Positions 3,692 to 54,731 of a DNA stretch of 64,000 nucleotides are shown here, piece after piece (the first letter of the stretch is position 1; each line of letters begins with the position of its first letter). The notes under the pieces are model-generated. The model worked only from the letters and a program-made list of their open reading frames with translations. It ran no database searches and was not told the origin of the DNA. The DNA lies in NCBI RefSeq assembly GCF_017168235.1, contig NZ_JABFAO010000002.1:640488-704487 (forward strand). Direction: 5' to 3'. The position numbers were made by a program, and so were the translations under genes. The stretch comes from Rhodococcus sp. KRD197 (GTDB lineage Bacteria > Actinomycetota > Actinomycetes > Mycobacteriales > Mycobacteriaceae).

Positions 3692-6060
3692 CCGCGACCC
3701 CGTTTCCCGTATGCGTCCAGCACGATCTGCAGAACGGTGACGGCTCCGGCTTTGTCGAGCGGATCGTTGCCGTTGCCGCACTTGGGTGATTGCACGCAGG
3801 ACGGGCAACCGGTGGGGCATTCGCACGAGGAGATCGCGTCCTTGGTCGCTTCCAGCCATTCTGCGATCGCGCGGTGGCCTCGATCGGCGAAACCTGCACC
3901 GCCGTCGTATCCGTCGTAGACGAACACCGTCGGGAGCCCGGTGTCGGGGTGCAGCGCCGTAGACACCCCACCGATGTCCCAGCGGTCGCACGTCGCGACG
4001 AGCGGCAGGAGCCCGATTGCGGCGTGTTCGGCGGCGTGCAGTGAGCCGGGGAAACGTTCGGGTTCGATGCCGCTGTCGATGAGCAGTTCCGGTGTGATGG
4101 TGTACATCACGGCGCGCGTGTCGAGGGTTTGTTCGGGCATATCGAGTTCGACCGAGTCGAGGATTTCCCCGGAATGCAGCCGGCGGAGGTAGCCGATGAC
4201 TTGATGCGTCACGTTCACCTGAACGAGCGCGATGCGCACCTCTCCGAGCGTGCGCTCGGAATGCACTGCCGTGATGGCGATGTCGGTGGTTTCGCGGGCG
4301 GAGGTGTTCCAGTCGGGGTGTTCGGGGTGTACGAGCGCAAGCCCGTCCTCCAAGTCGAGTTCGTCGACCACGAACGATTCACCTTGATGGATGTGGACGG
4401 CACCGGGATGAACTGTGGCGGGGGCTTTCCCGGAGTCGACGGTCCCGAGCATTCGCCCGGATTCTCCGTCGACGATCGCCACCTGGGTGCCGGTTCCGCC
4501 GCGGATGTTCACCGACGCGTGCGGGGCGTACTTCTGGCCTTCCGGTGTGATGAACCATCCGTGTGGCCTGCGGCGCAGCAGACCGTCTGCAGCGAGAGCC
4601 GTCAGCACTGTCTCGGCCTCCAGCTCGTCGGCCTCGGCGAAGGTGATCGGCAATTCTGCTGCAGCACAGAGCAGCTGCGGAGCCAACAGGTACGGATTGG
4701 TCGGGTCGGTGACGGTTGCTTCGACGGGCTTGTCGAGGAGGGCGGCCGGATGATGGACGAGGTAGGTGTCGAGTGGGTCGTCCCGGGCGACGAGGGTGAC
4801 GAGCGATCCCTCGCCGCGCCTGCCCGACCGCCCGGCTTGCTGCCAGAACGAGGAGACCGTGCCGGGGAAGCCCGCGACCACCACGGCGTCGAGACCAGCG
4901 ATATCGACGCCCAGCTCGAGGGCATTGGTCGTCGCGACGCCGAGGAGGGTGCCGTCGGACAGATTCGCCTCCAGCGCCCGACGATCCTCGGCGAGATACC
5001 CGGCGCGGTAAGCGGCGACACGCCCCGGCAAGTCGCGATCGACCTCGGCGAGCAGCCGCTGCGTGCCGAGGGCGGTCACCTCGGCGCCGCGTCGCGAGCG
5101 CACGAAAGTCAATGTGCGCGCCCCCTCGACCATGAGATCGGCCATGATCCTCGAGGCCTCCGCTCCGGCCGATCGACGCACGGGCGCACCGTTCTCGCCG
5201 GTGATCTCCTTCAGCAGCGGCGGTTCCCACAGTGCGACGGTGCGCGGTCCGTGTGGCGAGCCGTCCTCGGTCACCTCGGTGCACGGTGCGCCGACGAGTC
5301 TCGAGGCGGCAGCTCCCGGGGCCGATGTCGTCGCGCTCGCGAGCACGAAGGTCGGGGACGCTCCGTAGCGTGCGCAGATGCGTCGCAGTCGCCGGAGTAT
5401 CAGTGCGACGTTCGAGCCGAACACGCCGCGGTAGTAATGGCATTCGTCGACTACGACGAAGCGAAGGTTTCGGAGAAAACGCGCCCAACGCTCGTGTGCG
5501 CCCAGGATTCCGATGTGGATCATGTCGGGATTGGTGAAGATCCAGCGGGCGTTCGCACGCGCCCACTGACGGACCTCGATCGGGGTATCTCCGTCGTAGG
5601 CGCTCGGAAACACCTCGGCGAGTTGCGGTGCCTCCTCACGCAACTCGTCGGTGATGGAGATGATGCTGCGGAGTTGGTCCGCACCGAGCGCCTTGGTCGG
5701 GGCCAGGTAGAGGGCGCTCGCCCGAGGATCGCTCAGTAGGGTCGACAGAATCGGCATCTGGTATCCCAGTGACTTTCCCGAGGCCGTGCCGGTTGACAGG
5801 ACAACGTGATGACCGTCGTTGGCAAGTGTCGCTGCGCGGGCTTGGTGGCTCCAGGGTCTGGCGATGCCGCGCGCGGTCAGAACCGTGGTCAGTTCCGGTA
5901 GCACCCAGCTCGGCCAGTCGTCGAATTGTGCCTCGCGTGCCGGTAGTTCGGCGACGTGTGTCAGCGGTTGCTCTCCGGACGGGGTGCCGGCGAGGACGCG
6001 GTCGAGCAGTGCACGTCCGTAGCTCCGTTGACCCGTGTTCGGTGGATCAGGTTGGGTCAC
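3688..6060 (-). CDS. DEAH-box helicase with DUF1998 (Rv3649-like)
   Basis: A large superfamily 2 helicase of about 790 residues found beside Tad genes in actinobacteria. Visible motifs are STGTASGKSLGYQ (Walker A), VVVDECHYYRG (motif II, DECH), LASATT (III) and QQAGRSGRRG (VI). The C-terminal DUF1998 region carries a four-cysteine cluster (CECPTGCPSCVQSPKC), probably metal binding as in the MrfA repair helicase family, so DNA repair is a reasonable inference. Start: GTG at 6060, preceded by GGAG at seven bases; ATG 6096 is an alternative that adds 12 residues. Confidence 0.85.
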   Translation of the reverse strand: MTQPDPPNTGQRSYGRALLDRVLAGTPSGEQPLTHVAELPAREAQFDDWPSWVLPELTTVLTARGIARPWSHQARAATLANDGHHVVLSTGTASGKSLGYQMPILSTLLSDPRASALYLAPTKALGADQLRSIISITDELREEAPQLAEVFPSAYDGDTPIEVRQWARANARWIFTNPDMIHIGILGAHERWARFLRNLRFVVVDECHYYRGVFGSNVALILRRLRRICARYGASPTFVLASATTSAPGAAASRLVGAPCTEVTEDGSPHGPRTVALWEPPLLKEITGENGAPVRRSAGAEASRIMADLMVEGARTLTFVRSRRGAEVTALGTQRLLAEVDRDLPGRVAAYRAGYLAEDRRALEANLSDGTLLGVATTNALELGVDIAGLDAVVVAGFPGTVSSFWQQAGRSGRRGEGSLVTLVARDDPLDTYLVHHPAALLDKPVEATVTDPTNPYLLAPQLLCAAAELPITFAEADELEAETVLTALAADGLLRRRPHGWFITPEGQKYAPHASVNIRGGTGTQVAIVDGESGRMLGTVDSGKAPATVHPGAVHIHQGESFVVDELDLEDGLALVHPEHPDWNTSARETTDIAITAVHSERTLGEVRIALVQVNVTHQVIGYLRRLHSGEILDSVELDMPEQTLDTRAVMYTITPELLIDSGIEPERFPGSLHAAEHAAIGLLPLVATCDRWDIGGVSTALHPDTGLPTVFVYDGYDGGAGFADRGHRAIAEWLEATKDAISSCECPTGCPSCVQSPKCGNGNDPLDKAGAVTVLQIVLDAYGKRGRG

Positions 6061-47108: not shown

Positions 47109-48422
47109 TTGACTGTGATGACACCGTCGACAGGTCCCGAACCTGCGCTGGCGGCGGGCGAGGACCCGCGCCGCTACGCGCAGATTCTCACTGCCGTGTA
47201 CGACGCGACGATGACCGGCGGCAAGTCGCCGGCTCGCCCGCGGGAGGTGATCGGGGACTCGTGGCGACGGCTGCAGACTCTCGGTATCGACCCTGAGCAG
47301 CGCAGCGTCGCCACGCCGCAGATCGACGTCTCGGACCTCGAGCTCAGCCGTCGGGAATCGGGCCTGTTCGACATCCTCGACGACCTGGCCCACGGGCTCG
47401 AATCCGTGGTCCAGGACGGCGACAACATCCTGGTGGTCGCCGACCGGCATGGCCGGGTGCTGTGGCGGAACGGGACGACGTCGGTGCTCGACCGCGCGGA
47501 CGGGCTGGGTTTCGTCGAAGGCGCGAACTGGGCCGAGGAGTCGGTGGGTACCAACGCCATCGGTACCGCGCTGGTCTCGCGCCGCGCGGTGCAGATCTTC
47601 TCGGCGGAACACTATGTGCGAAGCCATCATCCGTGGACCTGCGCGGGCGCGCCCATCAAGGATCCGCGAACCGGGCACGTCATCGGCGCAGTCGATGTCA
47701 GTGGCCCCGCGAGTACGGTGCATCCGACCACGCTGGCGCTGGTGGACGCCATCGCTCGTCTCGCGGAATCGCAGTTGCGTGAACAGCATCGACAGAATCT
47801 GGACCGATTGCGTTCGGTTGCCGCGCCGATGCTCGCTCGGTTACGGTCCCCGGCGCTCGCTGTCGACTCGCACGGCTGGGTTGCTGCGGTCGAGTCCGTT
47901 GCCCTGCGCAACCGCATCCTTCTCCCCGAGGAACTCGCCTCGGGTCGGTTCTGGTTGCCGACGCTCGGGATGTGCGATTTCGAGCCGCTACCGGGTGGCT
48001 GGTTGGTGCGGCCGACCGACGCTCACGCGGACGCAACCGCGTCGGAGGCGGGCAGCACGACGACCGTGGTGCTCGATCTTCGGCAGCCTCAACGCGCACG
48101 AGTGCAGATCCGCAGCGAGGCCGGGGAGTGGACGCACGAGCCCACACCCCGACACGCCGAAATTCTGTATCTGCTCGCGACCAACAGAGCCGGGCGCAGT
48201 GCCGCGCAGATGGCAGCGGACCTGTTCGGCGACGACGGCCGGGCCATCACCGTGCGCGCGGAGATGTCGCGGTTGCGCAAACACCTCGCCGGCATCGTGC
48301 TGACACAGCCGTACCGATTCGACGAATCGGCGCACGTTCAGCTTCTGCTCCCCGACGATCCGAGCCGTCTGCTGCCGCATTCCACAGCGCCGGCGATTCG
48401 CCGCACGTTGACACACACGTGA
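47109..48422 (+). CDS. GAF-domain transcriptional regulator of the acetoin/diol region
   Basis: A 437-residue regulator with the AcoR-like opening PREVIGDSWRRLQTLGIDP, a GAF domain (LVVADRHGRVLWRNG ... WAEESVGTNAIGTALVSRRAVQIFSAEHYV ... HPWTCAGAPIKDPRTGHVIGAVDVSG) and no AAA+ domain. The C terminus (ILYLLATNRAGRSAAQMAADLFGDDGRAITVRAEMSRLRKHLAG) is a winged-helix type DNA-binding region. It probably senses acetoin or a related compound and controls the preceding diol genes. TTG 47109 has GGAG five bases upstream; GTG 47115 and ATG 47118 are alternatives. Confidence 0.85.
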   Translation: MTVMTPSTGPEPALAAGEDPRRYAQILTAVYDATMTGGKSPARPREVIGDSWRRLQTLGIDPEQRSVATPQIDVSDLELSRRESGLFDILDDLAHGLESVVQDGDNILVVADRHGRVLWRNGTTSVLDRADGLGFVEGANWAEESVGTNAIGTALVSRRAVQIFSAEHYVRSHHPWTCAGAPIKDPRTGHVIGAVDVSGPASTVHPTTLALVDAIARLAESQLREQHRQNLDRLRSVAAPMLARLRSPALAVDSHGWVAAVESVALRNRILLPEELASGRFWLPTLGMCDFEPLPGGWLVRPTDAHADATASEAGSTTTVVLDLRQPQRARVQIRSEAGEWTHEPTPRHAEILYLLATNRAGRSAAQMAADLFGDDGRAITVRAEMSRLRKHLAGIVLTQPYRFDESAHVQLLLPDDPSRLLPHSTAPAIRRTLTHT

Positions 48423-48428
48423 TGTGCT

Positions 48429-48565
48429 GGTGCATACTGCACAGCGAACACAAGCACACCAGCCGCAGGGGGAAGCCGGTCGAAATCCGGCGCTGACCCG
48501 CAACGGTGGGTTGCCTCATCACGAGGCAGCGAGCCCGATTACCCAGCGACTGCGTGAGCGGCACC
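48429..48565 (+). promoter_or_regulatory. Cobalamin riboswitch
   Basis: The conserved core of a B12 aptamer is visible: GGGGGAAGCCGGTCGAAAT from 48468, then CCGGCGCTGACCCGCAACG, then GAGCCCGATTACC near 48531. GGTGC at 48429 and GCACC at 48561 can close the outer stem. Between 48566 and the start codon at 48666 several short inverted repeats (for example ATTCGT/ACGAAT at 48568-48587) and a CTTTCTTTTT run could form the expression platform. It should repress the downstream transporter operon when adenosylcobalamin is plentiful. Confidence 0.92.
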
Positions 48566-48665
48566 TATTCGTCGTGGTCTACGAATCGGCAGCCCCGCGC
48601 GTGGCGATTCGTGCTGCGTGTGTCGGCTTTCTTTTTCGTGGCTCTGAGCTCCAAGTGAGGTTCTC

Positions 48666-49649
48666 GTGTCACGCTCCACCCTTACCCTGAACGCCGCCGT
48701 CTTCCTCGCGGCAGTGTCACTCGTCGGCTGTTCTCGCGGCGACGCGGTCGAGATGGCAGCCGCAGGGGCGCCGTTCGAAAGCGCCGTCGAGGTCACCAAC
48801 TGCGACACCGTCCAGCAATTCGACGCCCCGCCGCAGCGCATCATCTCCATGAACGACCACGTCACCGAGGTCCTCATCGAGATGGGCGTCGCCGACCGCA
48901 TCGTCGGCATGGGATACCAGGACGCAACTCCGACGCCGGAGACGGCCGAGGAGTTCGCGCGTATTGAAGGCCTCGCCGACGAGTATCCGACGCGCGAACA
49001 GATCCTCGATCTCGACCCCGACCTGGTTGTCGGCGGCATGCGCAGCGCATTCGACGACAAGGAGGGACGTTCACGAGACTCGTTCACCGAAATCGGGATT
49101 CCGACCTTCCTGTTCTCGGAGTACTGCGGGTCCGGTCTCGCGGATATCGGCATGCTCGAGACCGACTACACCCAACTCGGTGACATCCTCGGCGTCCCGG
49201 ACGCCGCACGTGAGGTCACCGACGGTGTCGTGAACGAGCTGGCCGCGCTCCGCGAGGACCTCGACGGCGTCACCCCGACACCCACCTTCTTCTACGACTC
49301 CGGCGAGGCCGCACCGATGACGATCGGCGGCGTCGGCGTGGGCCAGTTGATCGCCGACCAGGCCGGAGCGGCCAATATCTTCCCCGAGGGCGAACGGCCC
49401 TACCTGGACACCACCTGGGAGGTGGTGGGCGAACGGGCCCCGCAGGCCATCGTCGTACTCGACTACGGAGACACCTCGGCGCAGGGCAAGATCGACTTCC
49501 TGAAGAACCAGCCGATCATGGCGACGACCCCGGCGGTGCGCGAGGACAACTTCATCGTCGTGCCCCTCGACGACTTCTTCGAGAGTCCCCGGCTGGTCAC
49601 CAGTGCCGAGACCATCGCGAAGGCGCTGCATCCGGACCGTTTCCAGTGA
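48666..49649 (+). CDS. ABC transporter substrate-binding lipoprotein (corrinoid or F420-0 type)
   Basis: A 327-residue BtuF/FepB-fold solute-binding lipoprotein. GTG 48666 follows GTGAGG; the signal peptide ends in lipobox VGC at about residue 22. FDAPPQRIISMNDHVTEVLIEMGVADRIVGMG and the segment ADEYPTREQILDLDPDLVVGG are the periplasmic-binding lobes. Automatic annotation tends to name this family a putative F420-0 transporter, but the cobalamin riboswitch directly upstream makes corrinoid uptake the better reading. It overlaps the permease start (GTGA). Confidence 0.9.
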   Translation: MSRSTLTLNAAVFLAAVSLVGCSRGDAVEMAAAGAPFESAVEVTNCDTVQQFDAPPQRIISMNDHVTEVLIEMGVADRIVGMGYQDATPTPETAEEFARIEGLADEYPTREQILDLDPDLVVGGMRSAFDDKEGRSRDSFTEIGIPTFLFSEYCGSGLADIGMLETDYTQLGDILGVPDAAREVTDGVVNELAALREDLDGVTPTPTFFYDSGEAAPMTIGGVGVGQLIADQAGAANIFPEGERPYLDTTWEVVGERAPQAIVVLDYGDTSAQGKIDFLKNQPIMATTPAVREDNFIVVPLDDFFESPRLVTSAETIAKALHPDRFQ

Positions 49650-50734
49650 CAGCCGTCGCCGAGAAGCAGTCCTCCGGAGCGAAGCCGTCGACGGGTCGAC
49701 GCTCGCGCATCGGCTTCGGTCTCATTCTTGTACTCCTGACGGCGGCCCTGCTGATGGCCATCGCGGCAGCAGTGTCATTCGGGTCGGTGCGCATTCCGGT
49801 CGGCGACGTGTGGGCCATCGTCATCCACCGACTGGCGCCAGGAGCATTCGAATCCTGGTGGACAGAGGCTCGGGCGGTCATCGTCGTCGATTCACGCCTG
49901 CCGCGGTCGCTGACCGCAGCTGTCGTCGGGGCCTCGCTCGCATTGGCGGGAGGGGTCGCCCAGGCGGTCACCCGAAACCCGCTCGCCGACCCGTACCTGC
50001 TCGGTGTGTCCTCGGGTGCCGGGTTCGGTGTGGTGCTCGTGATGACGCTCGGTATCGGCGCGGGCGCGCTCGGCGTGTTCACCGTGCCGGCGGCGGCATT
50101 CGTCGGCGCGATGATTCCGCTGTTCCTCGCGCTGGCCATCGGCGGCAGATATCCGCAGTCGACGGCCATCATTCTCGTCGGCGTCGCGTTGAGCAGTGTT
50201 TTCACGGCGCTGATCACGTTCACGTTGCTGGTCTTCGCCGACGAACGGAGCCTCAGTGGCGTGTTGCACTGGCTCGCGGGAGGATTCGGTGACGCGCGGT
50301 GGTCGACCCTGCCGTTTCCTTTGCTCGCGCTGATCGTCATCGGAATCGTCATTCTCGTCAGCGCACCCAAGATGGATCTGCTCACCACCGGCGACGACGG
50401 AGCTGCAGCCCTCGGCCTCGATGTCCGACGATTCCGCATCGTGCAACTACTCGCCATCTCCATGCTCGCCGGTGCGGCCGTATCCGTCAGCGGCGGAATC
50501 GGATTCGTCGGCCTGCTGGTGCCGCACCTGGCGGGATACATCGTGGGTACGCGAGCGATCCGGTTGCTTCCGGTGGCGGCGCTGCTCGGTGCGATCGCAT
50601 TGGTCGGCGCGGACACCCTGGCACGCTCGGTTGCGCAGAGCACCGAGGTGCCGGTCGGAGTGGTGACGGCCCTCGTCGGTGCGCCGATCTTCGTCTTCAT
50701 GCTCTACCGCCGTTACGCGAGGGAGATGCGATGA
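49646..50734 (+). CDS. FecCD-family ABC transporter permease
   Basis: A 362-residue permease with about ten membrane helices of the BtuC/FecCD type. RLPRSLTAAVVGASLALAGGVAQAVTRNPLADPYLLGVSSGAGFG is the family signature, and SGGIGFVGLLVPHLAGYIVG near residue 285 contains the coupling-helix region that contacts the ATPase. The GTG start overlaps the binding-protein stop, and its stop overlaps the ATPase ATG, so all subunits are coupled. It should pass corrinoid or a related chelate across the membrane. Confidence 0.92.
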   Translation: MTAVAEKQSSGAKPSTGRRSRIGFGLILVLLTAALLMAIAAAVSFGSVRIPVGDVWAIVIHRLAPGAFESWWTEARAVIVVDSRLPRSLTAAVVGASLALAGGVAQAVTRNPLADPYLLGVSSGAGFGVVLVMTLGIGAGALGVFTVPAAAFVGAMIPLFLALAIGGRYPQSTAIILVGVALSSVFTALITFTLLVFADERSLSGVLHWLAGGFGDARWSTLPFPLLALIVIGIVILVSAPKMDLLTTGDDGAAALGLDVRRFRIVQLLAISMLAGAAVSVSGGIGFVGLLVPHLAGYIVGTRAIRLLPVAALLGAIALVGADTLARSVAQSTEVPVGVVTALVGAPIFVFMLYRRYAREMR

Positions 50735-51498
50735 GTCTGCTCGTACACAACGTCAGCGCGACCCTCGGATCGCGAGAGGTGTTGCACAGCATCGGGTTCG
50801 AGGTTCGTCCCGGGGAGGTGCTCGGACTCGTCGGCCCCAACGGATCGGGCAAGACCACCGCCCTGCGGTGTTGTTACCGGGCACTGACGCCCGCGAGTGG
50901 GTCGGTGCTCGTCGACGGCGTCGATGCGCACGAGATGAAGCGAGCCGAGCTGGCGCGGATCGTCGGCGTCGGGACACAGGAACCCGCGGCGTCGGTCGGC
51001 TTGACCGTCCGCGAATCCGTGGCTCTCGGGCGGGTACCGCACCGGGGCTGGTTCGATCGCCCGAGCGCGTCCGACGAGGACATCGTCACCTCCTGTCTGC
51101 GCCGGGTTGATCTTCTCGATCTGGCCGGACGCGATGTCGGCGCCCTGTCCGGTGGGGAGCGGCAACGCGTGTCCATCGCGCGAGCATTGGCGCAGCAACC
51201 GCGCATCCTGCTGCTCGACGAACCGACCAACCACCTCGACCTCCGGCAGCAACTGGTCGTCATGAACGCAGTCCGCGATCTCGCCGCCGACGGGCTCGCT
51301 GTCGTCGTCACTGTGCACGATCTGCGCCTGGCGGTGGAGTACTGCACCGCCCTCGCCGTGATCGCCGACGGCTCGGTGGTGGCCTCGGGTGCAACCGCCG
51401 AGGTACTGACAGACGAACTACTGGCCGAGGTGTTCGGTATCCGCGCCACGGTCCGCACCCGTCCGCGTCCGACCATCGATATTCACGGACTGGCATGA
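50731..51498 (+). CDS. ABC transporter ATP-binding protein
   Basis: A 255-residue ATPase. Walker A is GPNGSGKTTALR, the Q-loop lies around GVGTQEPAASVGLTVRESVALGR, the signature is LSGGERQRVSIARALAQ, Walker B is RILLLDEPTNHLD, and the switch histidine is in VVVTVHDL. It drives the BtuC-like permease. ATG 50731 overlaps the permease stop (ATGA), and the stop overlaps the start of the FhuF-like gene. Confidence 0.93.
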   Translation: MSLLVHNVSATLGSREVLHSIGFEVRPGEVLGLVGPNGSGKTTALRCCYRALTPASGSVLVDGVDAHEMKRAELARIVGVGTQEPAASVGLTVRESVALGRVPHRGWFDRPSASDEDIVTSCLRRVDLLDLAGRDVGALSGGERQRVSIARALAQQPRILLLDEPTNHLDLRQQLVVMNAVRDLAADGLAVVVTVHDLRLAVEYCTALAVIADGSVVASGATAEVLTDELLAEVFGIRATVRTRPRPTIDIHGLA

Positions 51499-52187
51499 CC
51501 GTCTACGAACTTGCCGCGGCGCGGGTGCCAGGGCTGGGAGAGTACCTCGACGGCCCGTTCGATCTGCCGGCGTCGGTGATGTGCGATCGGCAGTGGCTGG
51601 CCGATCGAGTGGCAGACACCGGTCGGCGGTGGACCTGCACGGACGACCGCGTCAACGGGACGTTGTGGTGGTACTCGGCCAGTTCGACGCTGGCGTACAT
51701 CGCCGTCGCCACCGCGATGGTGACGGGGGAGGCCGCCGATCCGGGCGTCGAGAACGCGTCGTGCTTCCTGCGCCCGGATGGTTACCTCGGCGGCGTCCGG
51801 ACTGAGCGCGTGATCGCTGTGGACCGCCTGCCGGCCGCGTTGGCAAGCACCTTCGGTGGCGTCGTCGACGCGTTGTCTGCCGTCTCGGGGGCCCGGCGGC
51901 AGTCGCTGTGGGCGATCGCGACGGACTCCATCGCCAACCGCAGCCTCGACGTCGGCGCTGCGCTCGGTGACAGGGCGTTGGGCAGCGAATTCGGGGCGTG
52001 GCTGGTGCGGGAGATGGCCTCCCCGATGCCGAGACCGCGGTTCGTCGAGGTCGGGGGCCGCACGTTCACCCAGCGGTGCTCGTGCTGCCTGCTGTACCTC
52101 ACCGGCGGTGCCGACAAGTGTGTGAGTTGCCCGCGCCGAACCCCGGCTGATCGCTTGCGTGGGCTCGAGGCAGCCGCGCGCTACTAG
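51495..52187 (+). CDS. FhuF-like [2Fe-2S] reductase
   Basis: A 230-residue protein whose C terminus carries the FhuF cysteine pattern CC-x10-C-x2-C (within RCSCCLLYLTGG and KCVSCPR), which binds an unusual [2Fe-2S] cluster. FhuF reduces ferric siderophores after uptake. Here the gene is coupled (ATGA overlap) to a transporter under a cobalamin riboswitch, so it may reduce the imported corrinoid cobalt instead; that is inference. No signal peptide is present, consistent with a cytoplasmic reductase. Confidence 0.85.
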   Translation: MTVYELAAARVPGLGEYLDGPFDLPASVMCDRQWLADRVADTGRRWTCTDDRVNGTLWWYSASSTLAYIAVATAMVTGEAADPGVENASCFLRPDGYLGGVRTERVIAVDRLPAALASTFGGVVDALSAVSGARRQSLWAIATDSIANRSLDVGAALGDRALGSEFGAWLVREMASPMPRPRFVEVGGRTFTQRCSCCLLYLTGGADKCVSCPRRTPADRLRGLEAAARY

Positions 52188-52216: not shown

Positions 52217-52735
52217 ATGACTTCCGGGCCCGACGCTCCCACGCGCATGCGTGGTGCATTCGTCGGCGCCGTGTCCGGGTCGTTGTCCATCGCCGCCCAC
52301 GGAATGGGCGGCGGAACCATGGTGCCGAGTGAATCGGCGCTCGTTCTTCTCGTGGTGGTCAGTGCCGCCCTCGGAGGCCTGGTGTCCCTGTTCGGGGCAC
52401 GCGTTCCGCTGGTCGCGGTGCTTGCTCTGGGCCAGTTGGTCGGGCACACGGTTCTGTCGATCGCGAGCGAGCACCATCATGCCTCCGCTCTGACACCGTC
52501 GATGCTTGCCGCGCACGCTGCCGCGACCGCGCTGTGTGCGCTGCTCGTCCGCGGCGCAGTGCTCGGCTGCACGCACGCAGTGTCGGTTCTCCGACGCATC
52601 CTGCCGGTCCTTGCCGTGGTGCTGCCGGTGCAGGAGCGACCGCGCCTCGTCACGGTCGACTATCGACCCGATGTCATTCTCCGACTGTTGGTGTCCTGGG
52701 GACCAGGAACACGCGGGCCTCCCGTACCGGCCTGA
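52217..52735 (+). CDS. Small membrane protein of the copper/heme group, unknown function
   Basis: A 172-residue protein with four or five membrane helices and a His-rich segment (ASEHHHASALTPSMLAAHA) in the middle. I do not recognise a named family. It begins the run of genes for a PepSY membrane protein, PCuAC chaperone and DyP peroxidase, and is separated from the next by about 100 bases. Metal handling is a guess based on its neighbours and the histidines. ATG 52217 lies 29 bases after the FhuF-like stop. Confidence 0.75.
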   Translation: MTSGPDAPTRMRGAFVGAVSGSLSIAAHGMGGGTMVPSESALVLLVVVSAALGGLVSLFGARVPLVAVLALGQLVGHTVLSIASEHHHASALTPSMLAAHAAATALCALLVRGAVLGCTHAVSVLRRILPVLAVVLPVQERPRLVTVDYRPDVILRLLVSWGPGTRGPPVPA

Positions 52736-52836
52736 GCTGTCCGCTTCACCCCACTCGTATTTCCTGATACCCGTGGGGCTTCCCCCTGCGCCTGAGCGGC
52801 GCCACCACCTCATTTCGAGACGAATCGAGTTCTCGT

Positions 52837-54246
52837 ATGTCCATACAAGGCACAGTTGTGCCCGAAACCGGGCAGGCGCCCGAACACTCGCCGCCCGAAC
52901 CGTCACTGATGATGAGACTCCACTTCTACGCCGGGATTCTCATCGCACCGTTCATCCTCGTCGCCGCCGTCAGCGGCGGCCTCTACGCCCTCGCGCCGAC
53001 CGCCGAGGACATCGTCTATTCCGATCTGCTGCACACTGATTCGACCGGACCGACAGCGTCGGTGGCCGAACAGGTCGACGCGGCAACACTGGTTCGACCC
53101 GACCTGGCGCTACAGGCGGTTCGACCCGCAGCAGAGCCAGGCGAGACCACCCGCGTGATGTTCACCGACCCGACTCTCGGCGAATCGGAACGTCGAGCGG
53201 TCTTCGTCGATCCCGTGACGGCCGAATCCGTCGGCGAATCCGTCGTCTACGGCAGTAGCGGTGCACTACCGATGCGGACCTGGATCAGCCAACTCCATCG
53301 TCACCTTCATCTCGGCGAGCCGGGCAGGATCTACAGCGAGCTCGCGGCATCGTGGCTGTGGATCGTCGCGCTCGGGGGCGTCGTGCTGTGGGTGCGGCGC
53401 TACCGAAACCGCGGCGGTCCACTGCTCACCGTCGACCGATCGCTGACGGGCCGGGCGCGTACCCGCAACTGGCACGGCGCCGTCGGAATCTGGATCGCTG
53501 TGGGGTTGGTCTTCCTGTCGGCGACCGGATTGACGTGGTCGAAATACGCCGGCGAGAACATCGGCGATCTTCGTACGTCGCTGAGCTGGACCACACCGAA
53601 AGTCGACTCCTCGCTCACCGGAAGTGCCGCATCGATGTCTGGCGACCACGCCGGACACGACACATCGGCGGCGCCGATGGTCACCGGTGACGCTGCGAGC
53701 GCGGGAGCCGCTCGCCTGGATGCGGTGCTCGGCTCGGCACGTGCCGAGGGGATCGACGGCGCTGTCGAGGTGACGATCCCAGCGGATGCGAGCACGGCAT
53801 TCGTCGTCACGGAAACCCGCCAGCCCTGGGTGTTGTCGACCAGCTCCGTCGCCATCGACGGGGCCACCAACCAAGTGGTGGACACCAACTGGTTCGAGGA
53901 CTGGCCGCTGGCGGCGAAGCTGACCATGTGGGGCATCGCGCTGCACATGGGCATTCTGTTCGGTCTCGCCAGCCAACTCGCATTGGCCTTGTTGGCGCTC
54001 GCGCTCGTCACCGTAGTCGTCCGCGGCTACCTGATGTGGTGGCAGCGTCGGCCGTTCTCGGCCACCCCTGCGCGCGGGGGCGTCCGGCGCCAACCGATCC
54101 GGGTGATCGTGGCGCTGGTAACAGGGGCCGCCATCGTCGGCTGGTTCGTGCCCCTGCTCGGGATCAGCCTGCTGGCCTTCCTTCTGATCGACGCCGTCAT
54201 CGGACTGCGGCAATCCACACCAACTCACACATCGGAGACAGTATGA
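52837..54246 (+). CDS. PepSY-associated membrane protein
   Basis: A 469-residue protein of the PepSY_TM (iron-uptake-related) family: membrane helix near residue 35, a periplasmic PepSY-like domain, helix pairs near 180 and 225, a second soluble domain, and three to four C-terminal helices. SQLHRHLHLGEPGRIYSELAASWLWIVALGGVVLW and RNWHGAVGIWIAVGLVFLSATGLTWSKY carry the conserved histidines that bind heme in related ferric reductases. The loop SGDHAGHDTSAAPM may bind metal. Its stop overlaps the next start (ATGA). Confidence 0.88.
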   Translation: MSIQGTVVPETGQAPEHSPPEPSLMMRLHFYAGILIAPFILVAAVSGGLYALAPTAEDIVYSDLLHTDSTGPTASVAEQVDAATLVRPDLALQAVRPAAEPGETTRVMFTDPTLGESERRAVFVDPVTAESVGESVVYGSSGALPMRTWISQLHRHLHLGEPGRIYSELAASWLWIVALGGVVLWVRRYRNRGGPLLTVDRSLTGRARTRNWHGAVGIWIAVGLVFLSATGLTWSKYAGENIGDLRTSLSWTTPKVDSSLTGSAASMSGDHAGHDTSAAPMVTGDAASAGAARLDAVLGSARAEGIDGAVEVTIPADASTAFVVTETRQPWVLSTSSVAIDGATNQVVDTNWFEDWPLAAKLTMWGIALHMGILFGLASQLALALLALALVTVVVRGYLMWWQRRPFSATPARGGVRRQPIRVIVALVTGAAIVGWFVPLLGISLLAFLLIDAVIGLRQSTPTHTSETV

Positions 54247-54731
54247 AAATCTTCAGAACAGCCCTCTTGGTAGCATTTTCCGCAGTTGCGCTGGCCGGTT
54301 GCGGCGCGGACGAAGCGCCCAGTGAAGCGCCAAGTGAAGCGGACTCGGTCACCATCTCCGACGGCTGGATCAAGTCGGTCGATACGGGCATGACAGCGGG
54401 GTTCGCCGAGATTCGCAACGACGGCGCGGAGCAGGTCCGTGTGGTGTCCGCCTCCACGCCTGTGGCGCCGATGATGGAACTACACGAAGTGGTCCCCAGC
54501 GCAGACGGTTCGATGAAGATGCAACCGAAGGAAGGCGGCTTCACCGTGGCCGCGGACGACACCACGGTGCTCGCCCCCGGTGGCGATCACCTCATGCTGA
54601 TGAACGTCACGGACCCGTTGACACCGGGCACCGACACCGAAATCACCCTGACCTTCGAGGACGGGTCGAGCACCACCTTCACCGCGCAGGTCCGCGATTT
54701 CGCCGGCGCACAGGAAAACTACAGTGGCTGA
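54243..54731 (+). CDS. PCu(A)C-type periplasmic copper chaperone lipoprotein
   Basis: A 162-residue copper-binding lipoprotein. The signal peptide MKIFRTALLVAFSAVALAGC ends in a lipobox (LAGC), and a short EAPSEAPSEA repeat follows. The PCuAC Cu(I) site is recognisable: MMELHEVV, KMQPKEGG and GGDHLMLM supply the His and Met ligands. Such chaperones deliver copper to the CuA site of cytochrome oxidase or to secreted copper enzymes. It overlaps both neighbours, so it is co-translated with the PepSY protein and DyP peroxidase. Confidence 0.92.
   Translation: MKIFRTALLVAFSAVALAGCGADEAPSEAPSEADSVTISDGWIKSVDTGMTAGFAEIRNDGAEQVRVVSASTPVAPMMELHEVVPSADGSMKMQPKEGGFTVAADDTTVLAPGGDHLMLMNVTDPLTPGTDTEITLTFEDGSSTTFTAQVRDFAGAQENYSG

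Follow-up and report, generated by a model that had tools for sequence, protein, structure and literature searches.

A cobalamin-riboswitch operon of Rhodococcus joins a FecCD-class importer to an FhuF-like protein and may supply cobalt for B12 synthesis

Within a 64,000-nucleotide stretch of the soil actinobacterium Rhodococcus sp. KRD197 (contig NZ_JABFAO010000002.1, positions 640,488 to 704,487; hereafter the window), a cobalamin riboswitch leads a four-gene operon in which the binding protein, permease and ATPase of an ATP-binding cassette (ABC) importer are followed by an FhuF-like gene, all on the same strand and with a 4-base overlap at each junction (Table 1). The substrate that this system imports is probably some cobalt compound, be it a chelate or a corrinoid; our leading, though tentative, reading is that the operon encodes a cobalt-chelate importer and a Co(III) reductase that together feed the cobaltochelatase subunit CobN. 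We infer these functions, including the ligand, the Co(III) substrate, the iron-sulfur cluster, the flow of electrons and repression by B12, from genomic context, predicted fold and conservation.

The four-gene arrangement is well conserved. A search with the window FhuF-like protein returned 54 homologous loci; 34 of these carry all four genes in the window order, one (L037) is cut by a contig end, and the other 19 have no window-type transporter nearby. The aptamer core is present at every one of the 34 complete loci, which rules out a chance placement of the riboswitch, and R1, a covariance model built mostly from window-type loci, detects all 34 as well as the window itself. Among 41 genomes (that of the window and 40 relatives), a window-type binding protein of at least 76% identity is found in 11, a close FhuF-like protein of at least 64% identity in the same 11, and a match to the Rfam cobalamin model RF00174 immediately ahead of the orthologous operon in all 11 of these carriers, in one case (G010) at 29.7 bits, below the gathering score. 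A first-pass annotation of this DNA had assigned the FhuF-type gene to the operon, and the recurrence of the aptamer-led four-gene order at 34 loci bears it out.

At three Rhodococcus loci (L011 2421-6672, L013 3918-6663 and L014 2463-6663), the same GAF-domain gene is followed not by a riboswitch and ABC genes but by a FUSC-like gene and then an FhuF-like gene, and in L011 and L014 an MFS gene precedes the FUSC-like one; genes were assigned with Pfam on L014 and by resemblance on the other two. Neither Rfam nor R2, a general B12 covariance model, found a riboswitch at these loci; R1 gave one weak match at L013, 4 kb away on the opposite strand (E 0.0015).

The riboswitch match itself reaches 33.3 bits, where the gathering score is 31.5 (E 1e-4 over the whole window), which taken alone is marginal. 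Its membership of the Cobalamin family is supported both by passing this threshold and by a paired core kept by compensatory change: in an alignment of 31 aptamers, the window and 30 loci, compensatory changes occur at 7 of the 23 predicted pairs, and the core around L5 shows no variation. A hairpin further downstream keeps four stem pairs in all 31, one of them being U-A in 20 aptamers and C-G in the other 11, and by its sequence the GGUC of this hairpin could pair with the L5 loop. Covariation, a score above the gathering threshold and presence at homologous operons thus agree with the first-pass proposal of a B12 aptamer as the operon's control element. Searching for the riboswitch core with a loose pattern overlooked true sites and returned stray ones, and R1 and R2 superseded it. 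Scores are inflated for 31 of the 35 strong R1 matches and for the R2 matches at L211 and L212, both also detected by Rfam, because those sequences went into building the models; weak R1 matches (E 0.0015 or worse) were left uncounted.

How the aptamer would act on expression is suggested by a predicted fold that masks the Shine-Dalgarno-like GUGAGG and the GTG start, which makes translational repression plausible. This hairpin is a possible translational expression platform; its folding energy has a z-score of -0.86 in the window, which is not unusual, and of -0.97, -1.76 and -2.95 in three homologous leaders. A promoter and terminator scan found no consensus promoter and nothing informative, its three terminator-like sites all lying within the permease gene. 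Upstream, the coding end of a gene for a GAF-domain regulator (47109-48422), DhaR-related at a score below cut-off, overlaps the start of the riboswitch match.

The fourth gene product is predicted to have an FhuF fold. Its AlphaFold model (predicted local distance difference test score, pLDDT, 94.6) has E. coli FhuF (7qp5) as its sole PDB match at E <= 0.001, with E 1e-4, a TM score of 0.66 and 13% identity, and a profile of 26 FhuF-like relatives matched 7qp5 weakly (E 0.0094) over positions 58-205. Four Hax3/dHax3 sequences outscored 7qp5 in that profile search (best E 4e-8), and were dismissed as repeat-like matches of only some 40-50 positions. At the C-terminus stands an exact CC-x10-C-x2-C motif, just as the first-pass annotation had described for this overlapping gene; CC-x(9-12)-C-x2-C occurs in 70 of the 72 family members in our tree set, the remaining two having a longer spacer, and we presume that the protein holds a [2Fe-2S] cluster. 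The window protein itself misses the FhuF cut-offs (TIGR03951, 22.3 against 63.85 bits; Pfam FhuF_C, 18.0 against 20.5 bits). Relatives in the same operon position in other families, L211 and L231, exceed the FhuF_C cut-off (31.5 and 31.7 bits) and fall short of TIGR03951 (32.2 and 45.2 bits). Elsewhere, a stop codon interrupts the frame of a partial FhuF-like match (L078, L094; G007:C27:394514-394702), possibly a decaying gene, and two Rhodococcus plasmids of 0.5-0.7 Mb (NZ_CP142144.1 and NZ_CP083975.1) carry a gene whose product shares 50% identity with the FhuF-like protein.

FhuF-like genes are also joined to B12-riboswitch importers in other genera and families. Family matches occur in 134 of the 298 genomes of the order. 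In a genus of a second family (g41, family f14), the window arrangement was seen in all five genomes in which an FhuF-like gene was found, with transporter identities of 35-49%. In four genomes from two further families (L211, L212, L214 and L217), a strong riboswitch match leads NikA, NikB, NikC and NikDE genes and a terminal FhuF-like gene; the Nik-type proteins of L211 have nickel or nickel/cobalt importers as their nearest models, below cut-off. Outside the window type, R2 placed a riboswitch-led importer operon ending in an FhuF-like gene at 5 of 89 loci (these four and L231), and in a second set a riboswitch-led importer with an FhuF-like gene at 6 of 20 loci, L258 repeating L231 and L272 repeating L211; neighbourhoods were fetched for a chosen, partly overlapping subset of FhuF-like loci, and the fractions are not rates. 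The remaining R2 matches were left uncounted: two more lie in L217, one in L251 is on the other strand from the weak FhuF match there, and one in L203, itself weak (E 0.026), precedes an FhuF-like gene by about 0.9 kb, with no importer found between. In a tree of FhuF-like proteins, for which no root was inferred, window-type genes occupy different starred branches from the other linked genes, and unlinked genes are interspersed in each, indicating several origins of the linkage or repeated loss of it.

At L217, two riboswitches lie back to back (4007-4272 and 4393-4581), one leading a ribonucleotide reductase gene and the other the Nik-FhuF operon. Four Blastococcus/Trujillonella loci (L042, L045, L048 and L050), which have no window-type transporter, carry an FhuF-like gene about 3-6 kb from a SUMT-like tetrapyrrole methylase gene.

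On the cobalt-chelate reading, low B12 would permit expression of the operon through the riboswitch, and the binding protein, permease and ATPase would import a cobalt complex, with a Co(III) chelate of metallophore or amino-acid type likelier than a corrinoid. The cytoplasmic FhuF-like protein, through its presumed cluster, would then reduce inert Co(III) to labile Co(II), which would be released from its ligand and inserted by CobN during de novo B12 synthesis. Chelated cobalt under air tends toward inert Co(III) complexes, and the model for the reductive step is E. coli FhuF, which acts on ferric siderophores, an activity that we also count for the siderophore alternative below.

Several genomic features favour a cobalt chelate. 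All 22 carriers tested, from among the 34 named ones, have CobN, as do the window's own genome and 3 of 3 MFS/FUSC-type relatives, so that carriers presumably synthesize B12 themselves; the count was made without a matched non-carrier control for the general frequency of CobN, which weighs against leaning on it. At 7 of 8 Dietzia loci the operon has cobN and a gene for a cobF-like tetrapyrrole methylase no more than 4 kb downstream of it, and at 2 of those 7, cobD and a cobC-like aminotransferase gene lie upstream (neighbours were identified with Pfam on L030 and L036 and as homologues elsewhere; the names cobF and cobC are our reading). Both of the transporters CbiM and NicO are missing from 11 of 29 distinct carriers, the window's genome included, versus 0 of 14 same-genus non-carriers (one-sided Fisher p 0.006, pooled), and within the genus from 3 of 11 versus 0 of 14 (one-sided p 0.07); four of 22 named carriers had been dropped as duplicates with identical coordinates (G320=G020, G321=G013, G322=G018, G323=G010). 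A riboswitch-led CbiM occurs in 0 of 11 carriers versus 4 of 14 non-carriers (p 0.11); none of these three p values is corrected for kinship.

The binding protein carries a residue signature of its own. His65, Tyr84, Tyr210, Asp211 and Tyr267 are common to 22 of 22 FhuF-linked binding proteins versus 0 of 12 FhuF-less riboswitch-led BtuF-like proteins, which carry Trp at 210 and 246 instead. The Trp at 246, present in all 12, aligns with that of the BtuF VPWP motif and is Tyr or Phe in the FhuF-linked proteins; judged from the BtuF alignment, the differing positions likely face the ligand. In a binding-protein tree with five rows omitted (NB_L146, NB_L150, NB_L157 and NB_L161 as divergent, NB_L160 as a duplicate of TB_L107), the 22 FhuF-linked rows form one side of a branch with support 100/100; when all 43 rows are kept, the second family joins the FhuF-less proteins, though weakly supported (82/60). 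The AlphaFold model (pLDDT 84) is closest to 4n01 and 4mlz, whose titles name no ligand, and lower-ranked neighbours include H. pylori CeuE and BtuF (1n2z, Z 22.5). Assigning the ligand from the fold was rejected, with siderophore, heme, nickel-binding and B12 proteins all within about 3 Z below the top four. H. pylori CeuE, of the same fold, was solved with a Ni-His complex according to its structure title and is a precedent for a metal chelate in such a fold.

Several points weigh against the cobalt-chelate reading. The Nik-type loci L093 (with a partial FhuF match) and L215/L273 gave no riboswitch match, and most of the neighbourhoods fetched beyond the window type do not place the FhuF-like gene in an operon led by a riboswitch. 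The transporter search covered CbiM and NicO, whereas cobalt may also enter through CbtAB, CorA, Nramp or ZIP; either protein may carry nickel, and the transporter counts are phylogenetically non-independent, with many Dietzia and three metagenome-assembled genomes among them. The usual reading of a FecCD system under a riboswitch is that of a B12 importer. A second, BtuF-like system with its own riboswitch and no FhuF-like gene next to it is present in 7 of 11 carriers and 13 of 14 non-carriers, which in itself favours the chelate reading; yet 4 of 11 carriers versus 1 of 14 non-carriers have none (p 0.13), as if the window-type system might replace it. Tyr84, moreover, aligns with the tyrosine of BtuF SSYSDY, which we take to be a corrinoid contact.

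These last points favour corrinoid salvage, the alternative that survives best and one that we regard as a real but lesser possibility: cobalamin or cobinamide would be imported, and the FhuF-like protein would reduce cob(III) to cob(II), perhaps removing the upper ligand, before adenosylation. Besides the SSYSDY correspondence of Tyr84, the permease and ATPase have strong secondary matches to BtuC and corrinoid ATPase models, below cut-off, and the cobD and cobC-like genes adjoining the operon at two Dietzia loci could serve cobinamide salvage. The transporter proteins all fall short of the BtuFCD equivalog cut-offs (BtuF 49.7 against 234, BtuC 222 against 334 and BtuD 132 against 281 bits). 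Corrinoid salvage sits less easily with the Nik-type operons that also end in FhuF-like genes, and we know of no Nik-type importer that carries corrinoids; nor does it sit easily with the Trp246 difference or with CobN in each carrier tested, and cob(III)alamin reduction in other bacteria proceeds without a dedicated FhuF. Control by a B12 element has, on the other side, served to identify BtuFCD systems, as the excerpted text of PMC2667541 has it.

A cobalt chelate is somewhat better supported as the ligand than a corrinoid, because of the Nik-type partners, CobN, the Dietzia cobN neighbourhood, the absence of CbiM and NicO from many carriers, and the binding-protein signature. The first-pass proposal of corrinoid uptake with its own Co(III) reductase therefore stands in part: its reductase half is strengthened and compatible with all our findings, and its corrinoid half has lost ground to the Nik-type partners, CobN, the carriers without CbiM and NicO, and the residues at likely ligand positions.

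Uptake of ferric siderophores under B12 control, in which xenosiderophores would be imported and the FhuF-like protein would free their iron in a form of iron-cobalt cross-talk, appears unlikely. Many siderophore and heme proteins are among the structural neighbours of the binding protein, and the close FhuF-like gene of L011, L013 and L014 lies beside MFS/FUSC-type genes with no riboswitch found by Rfam or R2; against this, no finding links iron to the control by B12 riboswitches that was seen in four families, and the Nik-type partners, the Dietzia cobN neighbourhood and CobN in the carriers tested all indicate cobalt.

The transporter of F420-0 that the family names imply can be rejected as highly improbable: TIGR03868, TIGR03869 and TIGR03873 are the top NCBIfam matches of the transporter gene products, but scores are 162 against 392 bits for the binding protein, 263 against 437 for the permease and 261 against 372 for the ATPase, 111 to 230 bits under the curated cut-offs, all nine further binding proteins, most of them riboswitch-led, fail TIGR03868 (best 237.9 against 392.4), and NCBIfam itself flags the three models as hypothetical equivalogs. 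The doubt that the first-pass annotation cast on this label was thus justified. In the window's own genome, a second binding protein, of TIGR03868/EitA type, lies beside permease and ATPase homologues (C1:447133-448032, L081); RF00174 has no match on the contig that carries it.

Table 1. Features of the riboswitch-led operon, in window coordinates
Feature	Position	Strand	Basis or remark
Cobalamin riboswitch aptamer (RF00174), divergent actinobacterial form	48408-48610	+	Rfam 33.3 bits; compensatory pairs across 31 aptamers
Loop UGACCC at the L5 position of the aptamer	48494-48499	+	Rfam alignment; invariant columns in 31 aptamers
Conserved hairpin UUCGU-CGUGGUCU-ACGAA	48568-48585	+	Stem pairs across 31 aptamers
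Predicted hairpin over Shine-Dalgarno-like GUGAGG and GTG start	48637-48673	+	Folding prediction
Lipoprotein-type binding protein, FecCD/BtuCD class	48666-49649	+	GTG start; Pfam PF01497, 92.1 bits
FecCD/BtuC-type permease	49646-50734	+	Pfam PF01032, 289.8 bits
ABC ATPase	50731-51498	+	Nearest models F420-0 ATPase and corrinoid ABC ATPase, both below cut-off
FhuF-like protein, CC-x10-C-x2-C, presumed [2Fe-2S]	51495-52187	+	Predicted fold and motif

Downstream of the operon (52217-54731), a gene for a small protein without a family match, a PepSY_TM protein gene and a copper chaperone PCu(A)C gene perhaps form a copper-handling cluster.

The operon shares features with several known systems. 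Like BtuFCD, it encodes a FecCD-class ABC importer with a B12 aptamer ahead and a BtuF-like binding-protein fold; unlike BtuFCD, it has a fourth, overlapping FhuF-like gene, and the fold of its binding protein is as near to several heme, siderophore and nickel-binding proteins as to BtuF. The FhuF-like protein shares with E. coli FhuF its predicted fold and C-terminal cysteine motif, and differs from it in its low identity and in its link to a B12-riboswitch importer. Members of the same FhuF-like family end riboswitch-led operons of NikABCDE/Opp nickel-cobalt type in other families; that transporter class is unrelated to the FecCD class of the window operon. CbtJKL of Sinorhizobium meliloti is described as a BtuFCD-like importer that is led by an adenosylcobalamin riboswitch and supplies cobalt; unlike the window operon, it is said to carry Co(II), and the excerpted account mentions no reductase gene (PMC7689651). 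Riboswitch control is established for cobalt and B12 transporters alike, according to an excerpt of PMC3766115, and the available text of PMC8088520 describes the function of the M. smegmatis BtuFCD homologues as still untested. A new pairing had been suggested at the first pass, and in the open-access literature we found neither FhuF paired with a cobalamin riboswitch, btuF, cobalamin or cobalt, nor any paper on a 'cobaltophore' or on an 'F420-0 ABC transporter' together with cobalamin; among the papers that such terms brought up (PMC7689651, PMC8264917 and PMC4531530), the excerpts of the first and third deal with other subjects. Judged from that literature, what looks new is that FhuF-type proteins are repeatedly coupled with importers under B12 riboswitches.

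The 'F420-0 transporter' label should not be propagated to B12-switched operons. To our knowledge, the cellular release of cobalt from Co(III) chelates is little explored, and a reductase tied to B12-controlled importers would, if the reading is true, be a missing step between uptake and CobN. The Co(III) reductase reading, if true, would likewise give a testable role to FhuF-like proteins found in close to half of the genomes of the order. In its broadest form, which we put forward more cautiously still, actinobacteria may possess a cobalt counterpart of siderophore iron uptake, in which B12-switched importers of the unrelated FecCD and Nik classes take up Co(III) chelates, and a [2Fe-2S] reductase of the FhuF family, recruited more than once, releases their cobalt reductively to feed CobN.

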